Positions 5,304 to 61,897 of a stretch of DNA of 64,000 nt are shown here, one piece after another. The stretch is from Isosphaeraceae bacterium (lineage in GTDB: Bacteria > Planctomycetota > Planctomycetia > Isosphaerales > Isosphaeraceae): NCBI GenBank assembly GCA_025356435.1, contig JANXSY010000027.1, positions 1 to 64,000 of the forward strand, given 5' to 3'. A model generated the notes under the pieces. It was not told the origin of the DNA. It did not search any database and was given only the letters and a program-made list of their open reading frames with translations. Position numbers and translations under genes: made by a program. Each line of letters opens with the position of its first letter. Positions within the stretch are counted from its first letter, which is position 1.

Positions 5304-7337
5304 TTAAGACCTGGACGAACTGCCACTGAGAAGCTTGGGGTTGATCCGGTCGCACTGCTCTTGCGTCACGTCGTAGACGTAAATTGAGTGGCCCATCCTG
5401 GCAACGGGCGTCAACTCGGCGAAATAGTCGAACGCCGGCTCGATCGCATTCCAGGCCGGTTGCCAGGTGAAGGCGGGGTCTCCCCGGTCGAAAAGCCGGA
5501 ACGGCAGGCCACGCACGAATGATGCGCTGATCGCATAAACGCCCGGCGTGAGCCTGGGCGAGGGGCCGACCCGCGACGGATGCGGGGTCGCGCTCATCGG
5601 CCTGACCTTACCAGCACGAGCCGGGGGCAGGAACCAGACGAAGTCGCGGTCGGGGACGAGGACGACGTTCGGGTTGACCTGGCCGAAATACGCCAGGCCG
5701 ACAGGCTTGCCCGGCCGGTTGGCGGCGAGCCAGCGCTTCAGGGTGACGAGGTCTTGCCCCCAGTCGAGGTTGCTGTCAATCAAATGCTCCGGACCCCGGT
5801 TCGGTCCCCCCGAGAGCCAGTTGAAAGTCGCCAGGTAGCTCGGGTGGATCAGGGCCGTTTGCAGGGTCGTCAGGCCGAGGCCGACCACAACCAGCGCGGC
5901 CATCGGCCTCCTGGCCTTGCCCCGCAGCGACGACAACCAGGGGACTAGCTTGCCCGTGGCGATAAAGACGAATGGAAAGATGGAAAGAACGTAACGTATA
6001 CCTAGATTAATATCCGTCAGAGCGCTCATGACAAAGAGCATGATTGCCGGAAAGGCGAGCACGGCGACTTCGTCGAACCAGGCAGCCCGGTCCCGTCGAA
6101 CGACGACCAGGGCGACGAAAGACAGCGCGACGAGCAGCCAAGTTCCCTCGGGCACCTTGTAGACGAGGCAAGCGAGGTAGTAATACCACCACCCGGTCCG
6201 CCTCATCTCGCCGTCGAGATAGACGGGATAGCCGGTCTTCTCGCCAGGCGGGGCGTTCGGGTCGAGCCAGAAGGCGGGCAGGCCCTCGGTCTCGACCTTC
6301 TGGTCGTCGAAGCCGAGCACGAATTGCGCGGGGAGAGGGACCGGCAGGCGATCGAGCCAGGTGTCCCGGAATCGATTGATCCGGTGCTGCCAGGACACTT
6401 CGAGCAGCCGGTTGGCGCTCCTCGGCCGTCCCTTCGCCAGTTCGCCCGGCGTGATCGGTCGGGTCAGCGATTGACTCGCCAATTCATAGGAACCGAGCGG
6501 CTTGCCGACTCCTTCGAAGCCATAGCCGACGCAGATCGTCGCCAGGCTGATCGCCACCATCACGCCCCCCTGCCCCGCGTCGCGCAGGAAGCGTCGGGGC
6601 CAACCGGCGAAGTTACGCTCGATCGCGAGGCGGGCCAGCCAGAGGAGCGGCCAGTAGCCGTAGAGCAGGAGCAGGCTGAATTTCGTGAGCTGTGCCAGCC
6701 CGAGGGCTACCCCAGCGAACAACACACCCTTCCAGCTCGGCTGGCGGAGATATCGCCAGAAGAGATACGTCGCGCCGACCGCCATCGCAGCTCCGGCGAC
6801 ATCGCTCGTAATCAGCCGGGCATGGGCCAGGATATTCGGGCAGAGGCACCACATCGCCAGGCTGAGCAGGCCGCCCAGACGCCCATAGAGGCGGCTCGAC
6901 CAGGCGAACACAAACAACCCACCGACGACCGAAAACAGCGGCATCACCATCCGCGAGACGGTGAACAGTTCGAGATAGCGGTCCCGATTCAGATAGGCGA
7001 AGAGCAGGGCGAAGTCGGGATGCGAGGGCGGGTCGGTCGTCCAGTATCTCGTGGTGTAGAGCCCCGCCGTCTCGGGGCTGAGCAGCAACGCCGGGATCGC
7101 CGCGACGAGCTTCGAGAGCGGGGGGTTATGGTGATAGAGCTTGAACGTCCCCTTCTGCCAGTAGGAGATACCGGCAGGCAGGTGGGCGACCTCGTCGACT
7201 GTAGGGTTCTCACGCCTCAGGCTATCGAACGCGAGCGCGTAGTGGACAGCCAGGAGGAGGACAACCGCCAGCGCGGTCCGCGTCTTGGTCAGGCCATATG
7301 GCGACGCGACGGTCTCGGTCTTGGGGTGCCGGGTCAT
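5304..7337 (-). CDS. GT39-like integral membrane glycosyltransferase
   Basis: 677 residues with about ten hydrophobic segments, the first at 21-37. The first extracytoplasmic loop carries the acidic pair D48-E49 in NPTVDEVAHLPAG, like the catalytic loop of the dolichyl/polyprenyl-phosphate-mannose transferase family (GT39/ArnT/PMT type). A large soluble-looking C-terminal region with SNLDWGQDLVTLKRWL follows, a sequence typical of the bacterial branch. Expected role: transfer of a sugar from a lipid carrier to a protein or lipid on the outer face of the membrane. The start is the ATG at 7337. The gene lies alone, convergent with the DUF1559 operon, with the repeat array at its 5' side. Confidence 0.85.
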   Translation of the reverse strand: MTRHPKTETVASPYGLTKTRTALAVVLLLAVHYALAFDSLRRENPTVDEVAHLPAGISYWQKGTFKLYHHNPPLSKLVAAIPALLLSPETAGLYTTRYWTTDPPSHPDFALLFAYLNRDRYLELFTVSRMVMPLFSVVGGLFVFAWSSRLYGRLGGLLSLAMWCLCPNILAHARLITSDVAGAAMAVGATYLFWRYLRQPSWKGVLFAGVALGLAQLTKFSLLLLYGYWPLLWLARLAIERNFAGWPRRFLRDAGQGGVMVAISLATICVGYGFEGVGKPLGSYELASQSLTRPITPGELAKGRPRSANRLLEVSWQHRINRFRDTWLDRLPVPLPAQFVLGFDDQKVETEGLPAFWLDPNAPPGEKTGYPVYLDGEMRRTGWWYYYLACLVYKVPEGTWLLVALSFVALVVVRRDRAAWFDEVAVLAFPAIMLFVMSALTDINLGIRYVLSIFPFVFIATGKLVPWLSSLRGKARRPMAALVVVGLGLTTLQTALIHPSYLATFNWLSGGPNRGPEHLIDSNLDWGQDLVTLKRWLAANRPGKPVGLAYFGQVNPNVVLVPDRDFVWFLPPARAGKVRPMSATPHPSRVGPSPRLTPGVYAISASFVRGLPFRLFDRGDPAFTWQPAWNAIEPAFDYFAELTPVARMGHSIYVYDVTQEQCDRINPKLLSGSSSRS

Positions 7338-7464
7338 GCGCCGGCCCTCGGGCGTCGGGACTGCGAGTTGGCTTCGTTTGGTCGGCGCGGAAGGTCTTGC
7401 CGTGTTGATTGGCTTCGTTCGGTCATCGAACGGCGAGCGATCCCTCCCAGTTTGGGAACAGCGT

Positions 7465-7598
7465 CTGGTCTCCTCCCCCCTTGCGGGGGAGGGTTAGGGT
7501 GGGGGGGCACGGCTCGATAAGTTTTGTGAATATCATCCCTTGCGGCGAACACGCCCCCCCACCCTAAATCTCTCTCACGGGGTGGGGAGGAGACGAGA
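7465..7598. repeat. palindromic element inside the repeat array
   Basis: A long imperfect inverted repeat: CTGGTCTCCTCCCCCCTTG at the left, followed by GGGTTAGGGTGGGGGG; at the right, CCCCCCACCCTAAAT followed by GGGGTGGGGAGGAGACGAG. The arms are joined by about 40 unrelated bases. It belongs to the same family as the element at 10048-10179 (same CCCTCCCC / AGGGTGGGG organisation). It widens the distance between two repeat pairs, as expected for an insertion. Confidence 0.75.
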
Positions 7599-7693
7599 GT
7601 TGGCTTCGTTTCGCGCGAGCCGCATTGCAGGGCGGATTGGCTTCGTTCGGTCAACGAGCGTGGGGCGATCGCTCCCCGCTTTGGAGCGACTTC

Positions 7694-7715
7694 TGGTCCC
7701 CTCAAGGGAAGGACC
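7694..7715. repeat. possible truncated palindromic element
   Basis: CTGGTCCCCT followed by AAGGGAAGGACC looks like the two outer tips of the palindromic element with the centre deleted. It lies between repeat pairs of the array. Confidence 0.35.
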
Positions 7716-8039
7716 GAAGTTGGCTTCGTTCGGCGCGGAGGGTCGTGCCGAGCGGATTGGCTTCGTTCGGTCGGGACTTCGGATCGACCCGGCCGAGGTC
7801 CGTCGGTCCTTGGAACTGACGCGACCTCCCGCCCGCGCGAGACCCGAGTTGGCTTCGTTCGGCGCGAGCCCCTCCACCGAACCGATTGGGTTCGTTCGGT
7901 CGGCCTAGCGGCGCGGGGGTTGGGTTCGTTTGAGCGCAAAGTCAGAAGTCCGATCGGGAGGCGATTGGTTTTGATATGCGACACCTCAGCCAACGCCTTC
8001 ATCATCTGCGTTTGCCGGCACTCTTGTCCCGCGAATCGC

Positions 8040-9569
8040 TCAACCGTTCGCGAGTTCGCCCATCGCCTTGAACGACGCTTTCAGGTCGACATAGAGCCCA
8101 CGATAAATCGGATAGGCGCGGTCATAGAACGACGCGACCTTGGCGTCCTTCGGCGTGGTCTCGACGACCCGGATCGTGGCGTCGCACGCCTCGGGGACGC
8201 TCGAAAAGCCGCCGGTGCCCACCTGAGCAAGCAGAGCCACCCCGAACGCGGGGCCTTCACTCGCATTGATCGTGCAGACATCCTGACCGTAGATATCGGC
8301 CTGGATCTGCTTCCAGAGGGCGTTCCTCGCGCCGCCACCAGAGAGGCGGATCTCGGTCAGAGTGACGCCCATCTCGCGGATTAGTTCGAGACTGTCACGC
8401 ATCGCGTAGGTGGCCCCTTCGAGCACCGCGCGGATCAGGTGGGGCCGACCGTGACGAACCGTCAGGCCGATCCACGCCCCCTTGGCGTCGGGATCAAAGT
8501 GGGGCGTCCGCTCGCCGGTGAGGTAGGGGAGAAAGAACAGCCCCTCCGCTCCCGGTCCCGCGAGCGCGGCCTCGTCGGTGAGGAGAAAATAAGGATCGAC
8601 CCCGCGTGCCTTGGCGGCCTCAACCTCGGACTGGCCGACATTGTTGCGATACCACTGGAACGAACCGCCGGCCGAGAGCACGACGCCCATGACGTGCCAC
8701 GCCCCGGGCACCGCATGGCAACCGCGCTGAAGCCGACCGAGCGGGTCGAAGCCGGGCTCGGAGGTGTGGGCGAAAACGACGCCCGAGGTGCCCATCGTCG
8801 CCGAGACCGCGCCGGGACGGACGATCCCGTTGCCGACCGCGCCGGCGGGCTGATCGCCGCCGCCGCCCACGACCGGTGTGCCGACGAGCAGCCCCGTCGC
8901 CTCGGCACCAATCGTGCTGACCTGGGCCGAGACTTCGAAGCTCTCGAAGCAAGGGGGCAGCAGCGCGGGGTCGAGGTCGAGCTTGGCGAGAAGCTCCTTA
9001 CTCCATCGGCGGTTGGCCACGTCGAGCAGCAGCGTTCCCGAGGCGTCGCTCACCTCGGTCGCATAGGTGCCGGTCAGTCGATAGCGAACGTAGTCTTTGG
9101 GCAGGAGGACTTGCCTCACCTTCGCCCAATTTTCGGGCTCGTGGTTGCGGAGCCAGAGGACCTTCGGCGCGGTGAAGCCGGTGAGCGCGATGTTGCCGAC
9201 CATCCGGACCAGAGCCTCACGCCCCCCGGCGCGGGCCTCGATCTCGGCGCACTCGGCGGCGGTCCGCTGGTCGTTCCAGAGCAATGCCGGACGGATAACC
9301 TTGCCGTTGGCGTCGAGAAACACCGATCCGTGCATCTGGCCACTGAGGCCGATGCCCGTCACGTCGCCCGGCTTGAGCCCGGCCTTGGCAATCACGGCCT
9401 TCACAGTCGACCTGGTCGCCTGCCACCAGAGTTCGGGGTCTTGCTCCGACCAGCCCGGCCGGGGATAGTCGCACCGGTATTCGGCCGATGCGCTCGCGAG
9501 GATGGCCCCGGTCGCGTCGATGGCCAGCGTCTTCGTCCCGGACGTCCCGATATCGATCCCCAGCGTCAC
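8040..9569 (-). CDS. xylB: xylulokinase
   Basis: 509 residues of the FGGY carbohydrate kinase family: N-terminal phosphate-binding motif [28 protein letters not shown] (the QMHG substrate signature of xylulokinases), [27 protein letters not shown] and a C-terminal [18 protein letters not shown] nucleotide motif. It phosphorylates D-xylulose to xylulose 5-phosphate in the cytoplasm. I start at the GTG ending at 9569, whose bases form a GTGA overlap with the stop of the upstream hydrolase gene; another GTG lies six bases upstream. It is the last gene of a five-gene run. No xylose isomerase gene is adjacent. Confidence 0.9.
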
Positions 9570-10585
9570 GCCCACGGCCCGACCTCCCAGCGCTCGCCGC
9601 ACCGCAAGACCTTCGGCCCGACCCCCACCGGCAACCGGCGAGCCTCAGCCTCGAACGTCTCGACCGGCACAGTATTGAACGTAAACATGTCATAATGATG
9701 AGGGACAACGAATCTCGGTCTGACGACGGCAGCCAGGTCGACCGCCTCGGCGCTCGACATGTTCCCCGCAACGCCCCGTCTCGGGTCTCGGCCATTGATC
9801 GGCACGAACATCACGTCGAACGACTCGGAGCCAAGCGCCTCGACGAGGCCGTCATAGGTCAGGCTATCGCCGCTGTGATAGAGCCGGAGGCCCTCGACCT
9901 CGACGACGAACCCCAGATAAAGATGATGACCGTAGTCGTTCCTGTCGAGACCCTCGTGGGCAGAGGCGACGGCTCGGATGCGAAATCCAGCGATTTCGAT
10001 CGTCTCGCCCGCGTCGATCCCGACCACCCTCTCGGATGAATCGACCTCTGGTCCCCTCCCTCCTTGTGAGGGAGGGATAGGGTGGGGGGTCGCGCCGACA
10101 TCACAGCCCGACGAGAGGAGTTGCTGTCGATTCGGAACCGCCCACCCTAACCCTCCCCCACAAGGAGGGAGGGGACCAGATGAAATCTCTCGGAAAGAGG
10201 AAATCATCTCTCTCGCATGGGAGATTAGAGCCTTCGGCACCACCAACAACGCCCCGACCGAAGCCCCAAGCATCGCCGGCACCGTCCCTGGGTCGAGATG
10301 ATCCGAATGCTTATGACTGGCCAAGATCGCGTCGAAGCCCGTCAGTTCACCGCCCCGAAAGGGTGCCGCCGTCATCCGAACGTGCGGCTTGTCGGTGTCG
10401 GCGTACTTGTTTGTAAGGTGCTCAGAAAGATAGGGGTCGATGACGATCAAGCCATGACGCGATTTGATCGCGTACCCGCTCTGCCCAAGCCACCAGACCG
10501 AGATCGAGCCAGGCCGGGGCGAGTCGTTTGCGATCTCATCGAGCAAAATCCGACCCGAGGCGATCGGCTGGATGAGATCGCTCAT
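9566..10585 (-). CDS. UlaG-like metallo-beta-lactamase-fold hydrolase with in-frame insertion
   Basis: 339 residues. The metal-binding motif H91-K-H93-S-D95-H96 ([11 protein letters not shown]), [11 protein letters not shown] and [11 protein letters not shown] place it in the metallo-beta-lactamase superfamily near the L-ascorbate-6-phosphate lactonase (UlaG) branch. Residues about 136-180 are encoded by a 132-bp palindromic repeat and read [12 protein letters not shown], a spacer, then [13 protein letters not shown], between two conserved blocks; relatives should lack this stretch. The start ATG overlaps the upstream membrane protein stop (ATGA, 10582-10585) and the stop overlaps the xylulokinase start. 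Predicted cytoplasmic hydrolase of a lactone or phosphorylated sugar; the link to pentose use is inferred from the neighbour. Confidence 0.82.
10048..10179. repeat. 132-bp palindromic element inserted in frame in a coding gene
   Basis: It begins with CTGGTCCCCTCCCTCC (continuing TTGTG) and ends with the exact reverse complement, giving a perfect 21-bp terminal inverted repeat. Inner arms carry AGGGATAGGGTGGGG and CCACCCTAACCCTCCCC, and about 50 bases separate the arms. Its length is 44 codons, so the host frame (minus strand) is kept and no stop appears. No target-site duplication is obvious. It matches the family at 7465-7598. Confidence 0.9.
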
Positions 10586-11094
10586 GATTCCGACTTCACT
10601 TCGCGAGAACGGAGTAGACGAGGCCGGAGCCAGACAGCCACGTACCCGCCGACACAGCCGTGTACGAGCGCGAAGATCGATTGACAGGTCCACATCACGA
10701 CGGAGATCGTGTCGCGGTAGTCCGAAAGGAATTGGTCGCGATCTCTGACGGAAGATGCGTTATAGAAGAAAATATATATCGCATAGGCAAGTCCTTTCGT
10801 TATCGAAGTGAACGCGAACACGATGATTTTATTTGAGAGGAGCGGCGACATCCAGGGATCGGACTGGGTGGTCAAAAACCCGGCGTAGATCAATCCGGCT
10901 ACGGCAAAGCCGACCCAGAAGGTTCGCCTCGGATCGAGAACGGCCACGATCGCGGCACCGATCAAAAGCGTCAGCGTCCCCGTCCACGCCAGGCTCGCCA
11001 CGAGCGGATTGGGGTGGAGGAACGCGGCCAACGCGACCCCGATCGCGGCGCTGATCCCCATCAGTCCAAGCAGTCTCGTCCGACGGCATTTCAC
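10582..11094 (-). CDS. four-helix integral membrane protein, unknown family
   Basis: 170 residues with four hydrophobic segments (about 9-26, 32-52, 58-75, 85-108) plus a weaker one near 130-155, and basic ends. No domain recognised. The start is a GTG whose bases overlap the stop of the MetE-like gene (GTGA, 11091-11094), and its own TGA overlaps the ATG of the hydrolase gene, so it is translationally coupled on both sides. It may be a transporter-like or structural membrane partner of the run; function unknown. Confidence 0.7.
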   Translation of the reverse strand: MKCRRTRLLGLMGISAAIGVALAAFLHPNPLVASLAWTGTLTLLIGAAIVAVLDPRRTFWVGFAVAGLIYAGFLTTQSDPWMSPLLSNKIIVFAFTSITKGLAYAIYIFFYNASSVRDRDQFLSDYRDTISVVMWTCQSIFALVHGCVGGYVAVWLRPRLLRSREVKSES

Positions 11095-58048: not shown

Positions 58049-61000
58049 TCAGTTTTCCTCCCCGTCGGCCTGTTTGGGGCGGGTCAAGTCACGGACGAGG
58101 TCGGCCAGGGCTCCCTGGTCCTCATGGAGCCTCTCGCGTTCCTGCTCTTGTTCGGGCATCAGCTTCTCGCCGCGCTGGACGAGCTTGTCGAACTCGTCGG
58201 TCCGCTCGTTCAGCTCTTGCTGGAGCACCTTCAACATCTTGATCTGGGCGGCTGCGGGGATGCCATCGCCCCCTGCTCCGCCGCCACCGCCTCCTCCACC
58301 GCCACCCTCGCCCGGATCGCCGTCGGCCTTCTTCATCTTATCAGGCTTGAGCGAGTCAAGAAGTTGCTTGAACCGGCCGTGCGCGGTCTTCTCGGCGGTG
58401 AGGGTCGGGTTATCTGTCTTGAGCGCCTGGAGCCGGCCCGCCGCGTCGTCCATCGCGGCAGTCGCGCGTTTGAGTGTGAGGGTGAAGACCGGGACCCCAT
58501 CGCCGAGCCGTTCGATTAACTCGCCAGTCTCGTCTTTCAGGCCGCCCTGGACCCGGCCGAGGTCTCGGACCCCGGTGCGTTGGGCAATCGAGAGCTTGCC
58601 GGCGTTCTTGGCGCGGGCCTGCTCGTAGCCGGTCGTCTCGCCGATCATCTTCTCTTGCCGTTCGGCGATCGACTTGAGGCTGTCGGCCATCTTGGAGATT
58701 TGCTCGATCGCGAGCTGTTCCTCGGCGTCGCGACGGTTCTCGGCGAGGTCTTGCTGGGCCTGGCGGAGGTTGTCGAGGGCCTCTTCCATGTCGTCCTCGG
58801 CCTGTTCTCCCTGGTCCTGGTTGAGGTCTTGCTCGGCCTTGGCCATCTTACCCGCCGCATTTTCCCCCTTCTGCGACGCTGAATCAGCCCCGAGCTTGGC
58901 GAGCTTCTGGAGCTGGCGCTTCAGCTCTTTCTGGATCTCAGCCTGCTCTTTGGCGAGCTTCTGGAGTTCCTTCTCGCGGGCCTTGGGGTCGGTCATCTTC
59001 TTGGCGTCGGCGGTCTTCTTGAGGTTGGCCGCCTGGCGGGCACGGAGGTCTTTGAGGTCTTTCTCGGCCTGTTTGAGTTCCTGGACGAGCCGGGCGAGCT
59101 CGCGCTCTCGACGGTTCTGGATCGAGTCAACGAGGTCTTTGAGATCATTCTTGGCCTGGTCCTGGTTCTGGCGGGCCTGACCCATCTGGTTTTTGCCGAG
59201 CTGCTCGGCCCCCTCGGCCATCTTGGCTGCGGTGGCCTTCTGGCGGCTCTGCTTGGCGGCGTCCTTGAGGGCGGCGGCACCGAGCGGGTCGTCTTTCTCG
59301 ACTTTCTTCGCCATCTCGTCGAGCTTCGACTCGAAGTTCTGGAGCAGCTTGGCGAGTTCGGCCTGACGCGCACCCAGGTTCTCCAACTCGGCCTTCTGCT
59401 CGGGGGTGAGGGCCTCGGGCGTCTTGCTCATCAGGTCGGCCTTAGCCGCCGCCTCGGCCGACTGCTTGATCGCCTGTTCCTGCTGCTGAAGGATCGCCTT
59501 CGCCTCCTTGACGACCCCGCGATAGGTATCGAACTCGCTCATGCTATCGAGCATTTTCTTCAGCTCATCGGCGATCGCCTTCTGGTTCTTGTTGGCGTCG
59601 TTAAGTGCGAGCTGCGGAGCAGGCTTGTCAGCCTTGGGCTGACCGGCGTTTGGCTTCGTTTCGTCGCCCGGCTTGGGGTCGCCGCCATTTGGCTTCGTTT
59701 GGTCGCCCGACTTGGGATCGGAGGGCTTGCCCGAATTTGGCTTCGTTTCGTCACCGGGTTTGGGCTGGCCCGCGATTGGCTTCGTTTGGTCGCCCGGCCG
59801 ATCGGGTTTGGCCGGGTCGCCGGGCTTCGGCTGGGCACCCGGCTCGGGCTTGCCGTCAATTGGCTTCGTTTGGGAACCGGCCTGGGGGTCGCCCGCGGTC
59901 GGCTTCGTTTCGTCACCGGGCTGAGGTTGGGCTCCGGGCTCGGGTTTACGATTCGGGTCGGACGCTTCGTCGAGTGCCTTCCCAGCGCGTGCAAGGTTTT
60001 GCTCAGCGGGGGTGAGGTTGCGGTCTTTAATCCGCTCGACAGCCTCGCCCATCGCGCGCATCTGGCGTTCGACTTCGGGGTTGGGGACGTTGGAGTTCTT
60101 GAGGTCGTCGGTGATCCGCTTGATCTTCTGCTCGATACCGTCGGACTTGCTGGTAATCCGGCTTGCCACCTGGCGCTGGATGGTCTCGGCATTTTTGAGG
60201 TTGTCGCGGATCGGGGTCGGCAGCTTGTTGGTGCGGGCGAGGGTACGAATCGCGTCGTCGACCGGGGCCTGCGCCTGCTTCTGCATGGCGTGGGTCCGTT
60301 CGATGTCGTCGCGAAGGGCTCGCTGCTGTTCTTCTAGCTGTCGGCCAGCCTCCTCATCCGAGACGATCCGCAACCGCAACTCACGGCTTTTGCCGATGTT
60401 CGGACCTTTGACATTGTCGAAGTCGCGGGCATCGGCGTGAAACGAAAGAATTGTGCCGGGTTCGAGCTTGAGCGGGGCAAGTTCCCATCGGTAGGTCACA
60501 ACCTCACGCTTCGACGGCGGTGCGTCTTTCCTGGTCGTGCCGTCCCATAGGGGAAGGATGACCTCTCGGGCCGGTTCCGAGCCACCGGCGGCGACCTTGT
60601 AGATCATCCGGATCGAGTGGATACCATAGTCGTCGTCGACCGCGATCTGGATCGGCACCACGGCGCGGGCGGACACGTCGCGGTCGTTCGTCGGCTCTTC
60701 GATACCGACGCGGGGGGCCTCGTCGGCGACGGTGCGGAGGTCATATCGGACGGCGTCCTGATTCTTGAAGCCCTCGGTGTCTTTCAGCTCGAACCAGAAC
60801 GGCGCGGTGGCCGAGGCCGGGAATCGTGCCGAGACTCCGAGGCCGTTGGCGACGAGCTTGACCGGGTCTTTCGACTGAACCTCGCCGACCCGCAGGACGG
60901 CCGAGGCGAGTGCCTTGTTGGCTTTGCCGTCGAGCTCGATCTGCGTCCCGAACACCGCCTTGACCTGCGTGTTGCCTGGCGCAAGTGTTTGCGGAGGGAG

Positions 61001-61897
61001 GCCGGTATACGCCGGGGCGACGAGTCGGACAGTCAATTCGGTCAGAGTCGGCGGGGGGACAACTTTGACTCCCCAGGGAGAGGTCTTGTCGTCGCCCGCC
61101 GAGACGGTGAAGGTGAAGTCTCGGCTGGCGGTGTCGAGCCGACCCCGGAAGACGCCGTCGTCGGCGGGTCGGAGGGCCTCTTCAGAGGTCTCGCCATCGG
61201 CGAACGTGAAGGTGACGCGGGCCGTTGAGGGCATATGTTCCCCCTTCGCGACCCCAACCGCCAGCGTGAACGGCTCGCCCCGCGCGACCTTGTGCGGGGT
61301 CTCGGACTCGACGATCGAGAGATGCGTGAGCTTCGGCCACTCGGCCGAACCGAACGGTAGGAAAAGCCGCTGAAGTGCGATCCGGCTCGACATCGGCACG
61401 AAGACCATCAGCAAGATCGCCGCGCCGACGGCCAGTGACGACCAGCCGAGTGCCCTGCGGGCGGGGCGGGCGTCGATCGCCTGGCGGAAGTCGATCGCCT
61501 TGGTCTCCTCGATCGTCTGCGCGATCGTGGCGTCACGCATCGCCTTTGACCCGCTCGCGTCGGACTCGGCCTGGCGGAGAAACTGGATTGTGCTGGCCAG
61601 TCGGTCGTTGAGGCCGGGCCAGCGGTCCTCGATCTTCATCGCGATGTCGAGGTCATTGAACCGGACAACCAGAGGTGCGACGACGTAGCGAGCCATCAGC
61701 CAGAGGCCGCTGGCGATCACGCCGATCAGGAGCACGAGACGGACCTCGGGCACTAGATGAATGAGCCAGTCAAGCAGGCCGGCCGCCGCGACGGCCGAGA
61801 CGACCCCCAGGGAGAGCCAGGCCAGCCCGTGGGCCGCGAGGAGACGACGGACCTGCCCTCGCAGGGCGGCGATTCGAGTTTCGAGCGGATGACGCAT
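58049..61897 (-). CDS. DUF4175-like large membrane protein with long coiled coil
   Basis: 1282 residues. Three N-terminal hydrophobic helices (about 20-85 and 148-165), a basic loop with VRFNDLDIAMKIEDRWPGLN, Ig-like beta domains in the middle (LTELTVRLVAPAYTGLPPQT), then a proline-rich linker at about 662-750 containing six (D/S)(E/Q)TKP units, and some 450 residues of lysine/glutamate/glutamine coiled coil ending in glycine-rich GEGGGGGGGGGGAGG. The six linker units are encoded by the same 16-base word that forms the 7.4-7.9 kb intergenic array. I start at the ATG ending 61897 (GGCGGGAG upstream), not 61918. First complete gene of the operon after the AT-rich gap. Confidence 0.85.
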   Translation of the reverse strand: MRHPLETRIAALRGQVRRLLAAHGLAWLSLGVVSAVAAAGLLDWLIHLVPEVRLVLLIGVIASGLWLMARYVVAPLVVRFNDLDIAMKIEDRWPGLNDRLASTIQFLRQAESDASGSKAMRDATIAQTIEETKAIDFRQAIDARPARRALGWSSLAVGAAILLMVFVPMSSRIALQRLFLPFGSAEWPKLTHLSIVESETPHKVARGEPFTLAVGVAKGEHMPSTARVTFTFADGETSEEALRPADDGVFRGRLDTASRDFTFTVSAGDDKTSPWGVKVVPPPTLTELTVRLVAPAYTGLPPQTLAPGNTQVKAVFGTQIELDGKANKALASAVLRVGEVQSKDPVKLVANGLGVSARFPASATAPFWFELKDTEGFKNQDAVRYDLRTVADEAPRVGIEEPTNDRDVSARAVVPIQIAVDDDYGIHSIRMIYKVAAGGSEPAREVILPLWDGTTRKDAPPSKREVVTYRWELAPLKLEPGTILSFHADARDFDNVKGPNIGKSRELRLRIVSDEEAGRQLEEQQRALRDDIERTHAMQKQAQAPVDDAIRTLARTNKLPTPIRDNLKNAETIQRQVASRITSKSDGIEQKIKRITDDLKNSNVPNPEVERQMRAMGEAVERIKDRNLTPAEQNLARAGKALDEASDPNRKPEPGAQPQPGDETKPTAGDPQAGSQTKPIDGKPEPGAQPKPGDPAKPDRPGDQTKPIAGQPKPGDETKPNSGKPSDPKSGDQTKPNGGDPKPGDETKPNAGQPKADKPAPQLALNDANKNQKAIADELKKMLDSMSEFDTYRGVVKEAKAILQQQEQAIKQSAEAAAKADLMSKTPEALTPEQKAELENLGARQAELAKLLQNFESKLDEMAKKVEKDDPLGAAALKDAAKQSRQKATAAKMAEGAEQLGKNQMGQARQNQDQAKNDLKDLVDSIQNRRERELARLVQELKQAEKDLKDLRARQAANLKKTADAKKMTDPKAREKELQKLAKEQAEIQKELKRQLQKLAKLGADSASQKGENAAGKMAKAEQDLNQDQGEQAEDDMEEALDNLRQAQQDLAENRRDAEEQLAIEQISKMADSLKSIAERQEKMIGETTGYEQARAKNAGKLSIAQRTGVRDLGRVQGGLKDETGELIERLGDGVPVFTLTLKRATAAMDDAAGRLQALKTDNPTLTAEKTAHGRFKQLLDSLKPDKMKKADGDPGEGGGGGGGGGGAGGDGIPAAAQIKMLKVLQQELNERTDEFDKLVQRGEKLMPEQEQERERLHEDQGALADLVRDLTRPKQADGEEN
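59650..59914. repeat. coding copies of the TTGGCTTCGTT repeat in pairs
   Basis: Six copies of (T)TGGCTTCGTTT start at 59650, 59689, 59737, 59776, 59860 and 59899. Pair distances are exactly 39 bases in all three pairs (13 codons); distances between pairs are 48 and 84. Two copies (59689 and 59776) are identical over TTGGCTTCGTTTGGTCG to the intergenic copy at 7368. On the minus strand they encode (D/S)(E/Q)TKP. Confidence 0.9.

Follow-up and report, generated by a model that had tools for sequence, protein, structure and literature searches.

What is the array of short repeats that lies between two minus-strand genes near the start of the window, i.e., the 64,000-nucleotide stretch of Isosphaeraceae DNA analyzed here? 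The initial annotation described nine copies of a short word, mostly in pairs, within a gene-free interval, and offered two explanations: a two-part protein-binding site or a small structured RNA. We recovered all nine copies at 7368-7930, with the consensus TTGGSTTCGTT, and the interval between the two genes is indeed gene-free (Table 1). Pfam gave no match for the open reading frames (ORFs) of 223 and 398 aa that cross the array or lie next to it. Seven of the nine words are exact copies of TTGGCTTCGTT and the remaining two read TTGGGTTCGTT. When the intergenic stretch (7338-8039) was shuffled 2000 times with its dinucleotide counts preserved, the mean was 0.001 words and the maximum was one, vs. 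nine observed.

The start-to-start spacings between consecutive words are 41, 191, 37, 83, 37, 92, 37, and 34 bp, which include three pairs at 37 bp, plus one pair at 41 bp. In all three 37-bp pairs, CGCG follows the first word and GGTC the second, as had been described; read directly from the sequence, the 41-bp pair resembles the others with a 4-base insertion. Such alternation between two flanks characterizes the window array; among the 51 listed pairs at 34-38 bp in this genome, inspection by eye revealed no common alternation. The 191-bp gap is partly occupied by a MITE-like repeat that the initial annotation had not seen. This repeat has many similar places genome-wide and adjoins words at other sites too. 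A nearby MBL-fold gene (9566-10693) has an in-frame insert matching the same repeat, with copies at 10047-10089 and 10138-10180, and this insert is missing from the syntenic ortholog (L186, 1327-2193).

Table 1. Positions of the array words, the bordering genes, and a second word cluster in the window.
Feature	Position	Strand	Remark
PMT_2-like gene (membrane protein)	5304-7337	minus	its start borders the array
Word 1	7368-7378	minus	exact TTGGCTTCGTT; reads AACGAAGCCAA on the minus strand; 15-mer form at 7367-7381
Word 2	7409-7419	minus	exact TTGGCTTCGTT; partner of word 1 at 41 bp
GC-rich palindromic (MITE-like) repeat	7464-7598		inverted repeats; own dispersed family
Word 3	7600-7610	minus	exact TTGGCTTCGTT
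Word 4	7637-7647	minus	exact TTGGCTTCGTT; 37 bp from word 3
Word 5	7720-7730	minus	exact TTGGCTTCGTT
Word 6	7757-7767	minus	exact TTGGCTTCGTT; 37 bp from word 5
Word 7	7849-7859	minus	exact TTGGCTTCGTT
Word 8	7886-7896	minus	TTGGGTTCGTT, the AACGAACCCAA variant; 37 bp from word 7
Word 9	7920-7930	minus	TTGGGTTCGTT, the AACGAACCCAA variant; 34 bp from word 8
FGGY sugar-kinase gene	8040-9602	minus	its stop borders the array
Second word cluster	59592-59909	minus	inside a gene; five exact and two one-mismatch words; not seen by the initial annotation

Dispersed words in the genome

The genome that contains the window (G000; 5.6 Mb in 303 contigs) has approximately 45 places that carry words, and the window array is one of these. 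The word is 15 bp long and non-palindromic, and reads approximately CSRANCRAASCCAAY on the opposite strand, with free positions at N and S. Its consensus came from one pattern that fixes the other core positions and from one search that allows two mismatches near exact copies. Compared with reversed controls, G000 has 82 vs. 2 exact copies of TTGGCTTCGTT, 225 vs. 3 matches to RANCRAASCCAAY, and 208 vs. 1 matches to CSRANCRAASCCAAY. Among the sampled clusters, 161 of the 168 words are intergenic according to a codon model, and none of the 33 multi-word clusters mixes strands; the G000 clusters consist of direct repeats only and lack the inverted M word that is described below for another group.

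The initial annotation would have been refuted by a lack of other pairs with the same distance, but this distance does recur elsewhere in this genome, with 40 of the 115 adjacent gaps shorter than 250 bp in the sampled clusters measuring 36 or 37 bp. Some of these gaps stem from duplicated units or from a near-identical composite block with the MITE-like repeat. The composite block (words plus MITE-like repeat) is found at L005, L022, L053, L056, L067, and L071; it probably breaks the assembly, because its copies are near-identical and often located near contig ends. Such near-identical copies also indicate that part of the copy number in G000 is due to recent duplication.

Distribution and genus-specific forms

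CSRANCRAASCCAAY has 35 or more matches in 13 of the 45 Isosphaeraceae genomes compared, and the controls have 0-2. The word-rich genomes include G000 (208), G014 (163), G015 (122), G036 (120), and G002 (88), as well as G066 and G008, and the word-poor ones include G001 (5), G062 (2), G064 (3), G028 (1), and G035 (3). These counts produce sharp contrasts between sister species, namely, G000 vs. G001, G015/G036 vs. G062/G064, and G014 vs. G028/G035. In 243 other genomes that sample the phylum evenly, SRAACGAASCCAAY has 0 to 5 matches vs. 108 in G000. The dispersed word family is thus confined to Isosphaeraceae (Planctomycetota) in the genomes sampled. No paired words were found in viral contigs, and no match to the array was found in plasmids.

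Both the spelling of the word and its spacing vary by genus, and direct arrays at 36-37 bp are the form found in G000. The arrays of G014 have units of 22-24 bp, G059 and G061 have 42-bp spacings, and G021 (L119) has a near-perfect tandem array of 22 words with a 24-bp unit. Since spacings or accessory boxes differ in G017, G014, G021, G059, and G061, the geometry of the element is genus-specific. We interpret the window array as a lineage-specific form of an intergenic cis-element family of Isosphaeraceae. A short hairpin of the CTGCCA...TGGCAG type was also observed after words in G000, G059, and G061 (L039, L074, L098, L099, and L110).

The near-perfect tandem units of G021 and G014, and the spacers that are common to the units of L044 and L096, are what would be expected of a minisatellite, a functionless product of slippage and neutral tandem duplication. 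However, at most sites the spacers are unrelated but constant in length, g15 genomes often carry single elements instead of arrays, and words are conserved at orthologous loci (see below), such that we consider this the least probable of the explanations weighed here.

The main rival to protein binding is a small mobile element, MITE-like or REP-like and served by a transposase in trans, in which the words would be transposase-binding sites without a role for the host. Mobile DNA also fits the data because the distribution is patchy within genera. Moreover, the dialects are specific to genomes, G000 has the composite blocks described above, and the second word cluster of the window is located within a reading frame. 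The syntenic locus of a same-genus record (SRR12456171_bin.19) is consistent with mobility as well: there, the sugar-kinase and PMT_2-like genes are adjacent with approximately 180 bp between them, compared to approximately 700 bp in the window, and no word is present. The window array is either a gain in G000 or a loss in its same-genus relative. The evidence that runs against mobility is presented in the following sections.

A composite element in g15 genomes

In G015 and G036, two species of genus g15, the words form an element of approximately 130 bp in which the A word is followed after 55 bp by the inverted M word and, after a further 17-18 bp, by the B word. Conserved YTAA and YTTGCGTC boxes, with starts approximately 22 bp apart, are located within the gap, and AAAGCGCG is found ahead of A. 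Among 30 elements from loci that were chosen for carrying the word, 28 have an A-M gap of 54-57 bp together with an M-B gap of 17-18 bp. A second form, in which the M word is unrecognizable, accounts for 21 of 50 instances. The same geometry was observed when words were not chosen for being in pairs: among the first 100 of the 237 words in G036, 28 of the 38 same-strand pairs within 130 bp are at 88-91 bp. In a contiguous 800-kb stretch of G036, which was not chosen for words and is 81% coding, this applies to seven of 10 same-strand pairs. Words are intergenic in 105 of 105 cases across 40 G015/G036 loci and in 29 of 30 cases in the 800-kb stretch.

Between g15 copies, the words are near-identical and the spacers are unrelated. 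Conserved words at fixed spacing with free spacers are the pattern by which a multi-site protein-binding element is recognized, and this is the pattern found. Under the mobile-element explanation, uniform decay of dead copies would not yield near-identical words among unrelated spacers.

The initial annotation had asked whether the pairs are found at specific places such as gene 3' ends. The g15 elements have a clear polarity in this respect. In the 40 G015/G036 loci, 23 elements have an opposing gene next to the B end, and in 13 of these its stop codon is less than 50 nt away; for stops before A, the corresponding count is two of 20. Among 50 g15 instances, a gene boundary lies within 60 nt of the B end in 17, all of them stops, and within 60 nt of the A end in two. 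In the 800-kb stretch of G036, five of 13 clusters have a stop within 30 nt at the B side. This placement is not general: among the 30 G000 clusters with both neighbors called, the upstream gene (in the direction of the word) points the same way as the word in 19 and the opposite way in 11. Even in g15, a downstream plus-strand gene takes the place of the opposing gene in 22 of the 50 instances.

The accessory boxes could instead belong to a promoter or operator family, with the word as the upstream site of an alternative sigma factor or activator and the secondary boxes as promoter elements. In addition to the 22-bp offset of the g15 boxes, a comparable arrangement was found in G017, in which the word is followed at fixed distances by two further boxes (GACTTACG and TTTGTACAGGT; L272-L281). 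Of 22 words, 11 have CTTRYG exactly 28 bases downstream and 11 have TTGTAC exactly 50 bases downstream, such that the starts of the two boxes are 22 bp apart. With a codon model trained on just approximately 18 kb, the G017 words were placed between codirectional genes and on the same strand in those six loci, out of ten, that have a plus-strand gene called on both sides. However, no start codon was called within 100 nt of either end of the g15 elements, and many elements are located between converging genes. The g15 and G017 boxes match no standard promoter known to us. We consider a promoter function improbable.

For the arrangement along the chromosome, a strand bias was considered and rejected, given 22 plus-strand vs. 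24 minus-strand clusters in the first 2.9 Mb of G036. In this region (contig C1), clusters occur approximately every 65 kb, and the coefficient of variation (CV) of their gaps is 0.65-0.73, compared to approximately 0.95 for random placement (P = 0.003-0.012); the following 800 kb, with 13 clusters, has a CV of 0.83. These values weakly suggest a cluster spacing in the first 2.9 Mb that is somewhat more even than random placement, a tendency that the following 800 kb does not clearly repeat.

Conservation and decay at orthologous loci

Conservation of the pairs in sister strains, which the initial annotation had named as a test, gave a mixed result: the array is absent from the orthologous same-genus site described above, but words are kept between two g15 species. 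When eight G036 loci were compared with 32 G015 loci, both sets having been chosen for carrying the word, three of the eight formed orthologous pairs. In two of these (L212/L223 and L214/L231), the A, M, and B words align in register and little else in the intergenic region is alignable apart from short boxes, e.g., TGCGTC. In the third (L217/L208), the element is present in both species and the alignment places only one word in register. This persistence of words at orthologous places is further evidence against mobile DNA.

We traced two of these orthologous loci in six species of g15, and only G036 and G015 retain the element intact. At the first locus, word-poor G064 has a copy judged by eye to be decayed, and at the second locus, word-poor G062 has one; the element was not seen in the remaining three species at each locus. 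Within the intergenic part of the 800-kb G036 stretch, we found 29 words with no mismatch vs. 0.2 expected, 32 with one mismatch vs. 7.7 expected, and 134 with two mismatches vs. 106 expected (standard deviation 32), the last being no clear excess. The one-mismatch excess could represent functional variants or decay.

Tests for a structured RNA

The alternative proposal of the initial annotation, a small structured RNA, was not supported. It may be extended to a hairpin in the 3'-UTR that acts as a terminator or mRNA stabilizer, and the g15 elements give some reason to consider it: their M and B words could form a stem of approximately 12 bp, and the last word is often close to the stop codon of an opposing gene, as described above. 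A stem-loop with G-C swaps, which the g15 element had at first seemed to form, was rejected after counting found no covariation. The variable C/G position of M and B is paired in 12 of 29 cases vs. 14.4 expected, and a Fisher test on 30 elements gave P = 0.85. More than half of the stems have a mismatch at this position, and other variable pairs are near the expectation of independence. Folding of the four pair units of the window on both strands revealed no common structure, with z < -2 in two of eight folds, which are the two strands of one unit. A search against Rfam 15 found nothing at the gathering threshold in the window and nothing at E ≤ 1 in 20 loci. An RNA would also have to accommodate the G000 arrays, which are exclusively direct repeats, and the g15 instances with a downstream plus-strand gene instead. 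Because covariation, Rfam matches, and a common fold in the pair units were all absent, we regard a structured RNA as quite doubtful. Since the variable position of M and B does not covary, the words appear to be kept singly rather than as a stem, which therefore points to recognition in double-stranded DNA.

Comparison with known repeat systems

Direct repeats of CRISPR are approximately 23-50 bp long, with regular spacers, and are found in one or few arrays. The G000 clusters resemble them in that their repeats are short and their spacers are unlike one another yet nearly constant in length, but differ in the 15-bp word, the few copies per cluster, the dozens of clusters, the uneven spacing, and the inverted copies in other genera. 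We agree with the initial annotation that the window array is neither a CRISPR nor a simple tandem repeat, given a 15-bp word with gaps of 34-191 bp at approximately 45 places in the genome.

Repetitive extragenic palindromes (REP/BIME), including the GTAG- and CGTC-tagged REPs in the available part of PMC3733652, are likewise dispersed, intergenic, present in many copies, often downstream of genes, and variable among lineages. According to the same part of that source, CGTC-tagged REPs have a stem of 8-9 bp and a loop of 4-5 nt (PMC3733652). CGTC also adjoins the g15 M word, but the cores of M and B are 17-18 bp apart, a wider arrangement than in the CGTC-tagged REPs, and the window array has no such unit. 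Three features of REPs were looked for and not found. The window words are direct repeats without a common fold rather than imperfect palindromes or stem-loops, and the g15 M and B words have no compensatory changes (12 of 29 vs. 14.4 expected). As for a link to RAYT transposases, Y1_Tnp/RAYT (PF01797) had no match in word-rich G036 and G017, and 17 of the 20 RAYT loci that were fetched had no word nearby, which also counts against the mobile-element explanation. Because the location and number of the elements are BIME-like, yet the palindrome and RAYT features are lacking, we assign them to the broad kind of bacterial intergenic repeat elements.

DNA uptake sequences are found at high and even density over the whole genome, with far more copies than the words described here. 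The 225 matches to RANCRAASCCAAY in 5.6 Mb, which are clustered and intergenic, do not have this density. The available part of PMC3630211 describes the dialects of these sequences in Neisseriaceae, and the words here are likewise short, restricted to one family, and divided into species dialects, but they differ in being clustered at fixed spacing and in having extra boxes.

The likeness to MITEs consists of the patchy distribution and of the physical mixing with a MITE-like repeat in G000. The difference is that the words are conserved and the interiors are not, and no terminal inverted repeats were recognized; around the g15 elements, inspection by eye revealed neither terminal inverted repeats nor target duplication. 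A mobile element without a host role is rather unlikely overall and is the strongest of the rival explanations. The literature searched, including the available parts of PMC5352709 and PMC3733652, contained no description of the motif.

A putative docking site for a DNA-binding protein

Of the two proposals made in the initial annotation, protein binding, here as a multi-part site, is the one that we favor, because fixed spacings are found in one genome after another, orthologous loci keep their words, and potential stem arms lack covariation. On these sequence patterns, the best-fitting explanation is predicted multi-site recognition of double-stranded DNA by a putative protein of the family, to which we give a probability of slightly under one half. 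The element would consist of several copies of the 15-bp word (CSRANCRAASCCAAY) at set distances, with further short boxes in some genera. A putative family-specific protein would read each word in double-stranded DNA and assemble on at least two words at fixed spacing, which would form an intergenic nucleoprotein complex. This predicted complex, which in g15 would often be located at gene 3' ends, may affect transcription or the local structure of the chromosome. That a protein is the reader, that the reader is common to the family, that the complex has such an effect, and that the protein was lost in word-poor genomes are points that we infer. The words may also be both spread by mobile blocks and kept where they are useful.

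A more far-reaching version of protein docking is a dedicated DNA-binding system of the whole family, in which the protein and its sites co-evolve, giving each genus its own dialect of word and spacing, with approximately a hundred multi-site complexes per genome in a g15 species, and in which loss of the protein (e.g., in G062 and G064) leads to decay of the sites. We consider this version speculative and somewhat unlikely in its entirety. If the words are docking sites, they would amount to a previously undescribed code, regulatory or chromosome-structuring, that belongs to an entire bacterial family. The patchy distribution would then offer a route to the protein, through a gene that is present in word-rich genomes and missing in their word-poor sisters.

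Words in predicted reading frames

Even if the words are mobile, they account for repetitive ORFs predicted across such arrays. The three frames of GAACGAACCCAAT read ERTQ, NEPN, and TNPI, and repetitive ORFs of this kind are common among the Isosphaeraceae entries in databases. The second word cluster of the window is located within a DUF4175-containing gene on the minus strand (58049-61897). The gaps between the upper six words of this cluster are 39, 84, 39, 48, and 39 bp, all of which are multiples of 3, and the words in the frame of the gene read (E/Q)TKP(N/I). It is as if an intergenic element had turned into a protein linker, or the reverse.
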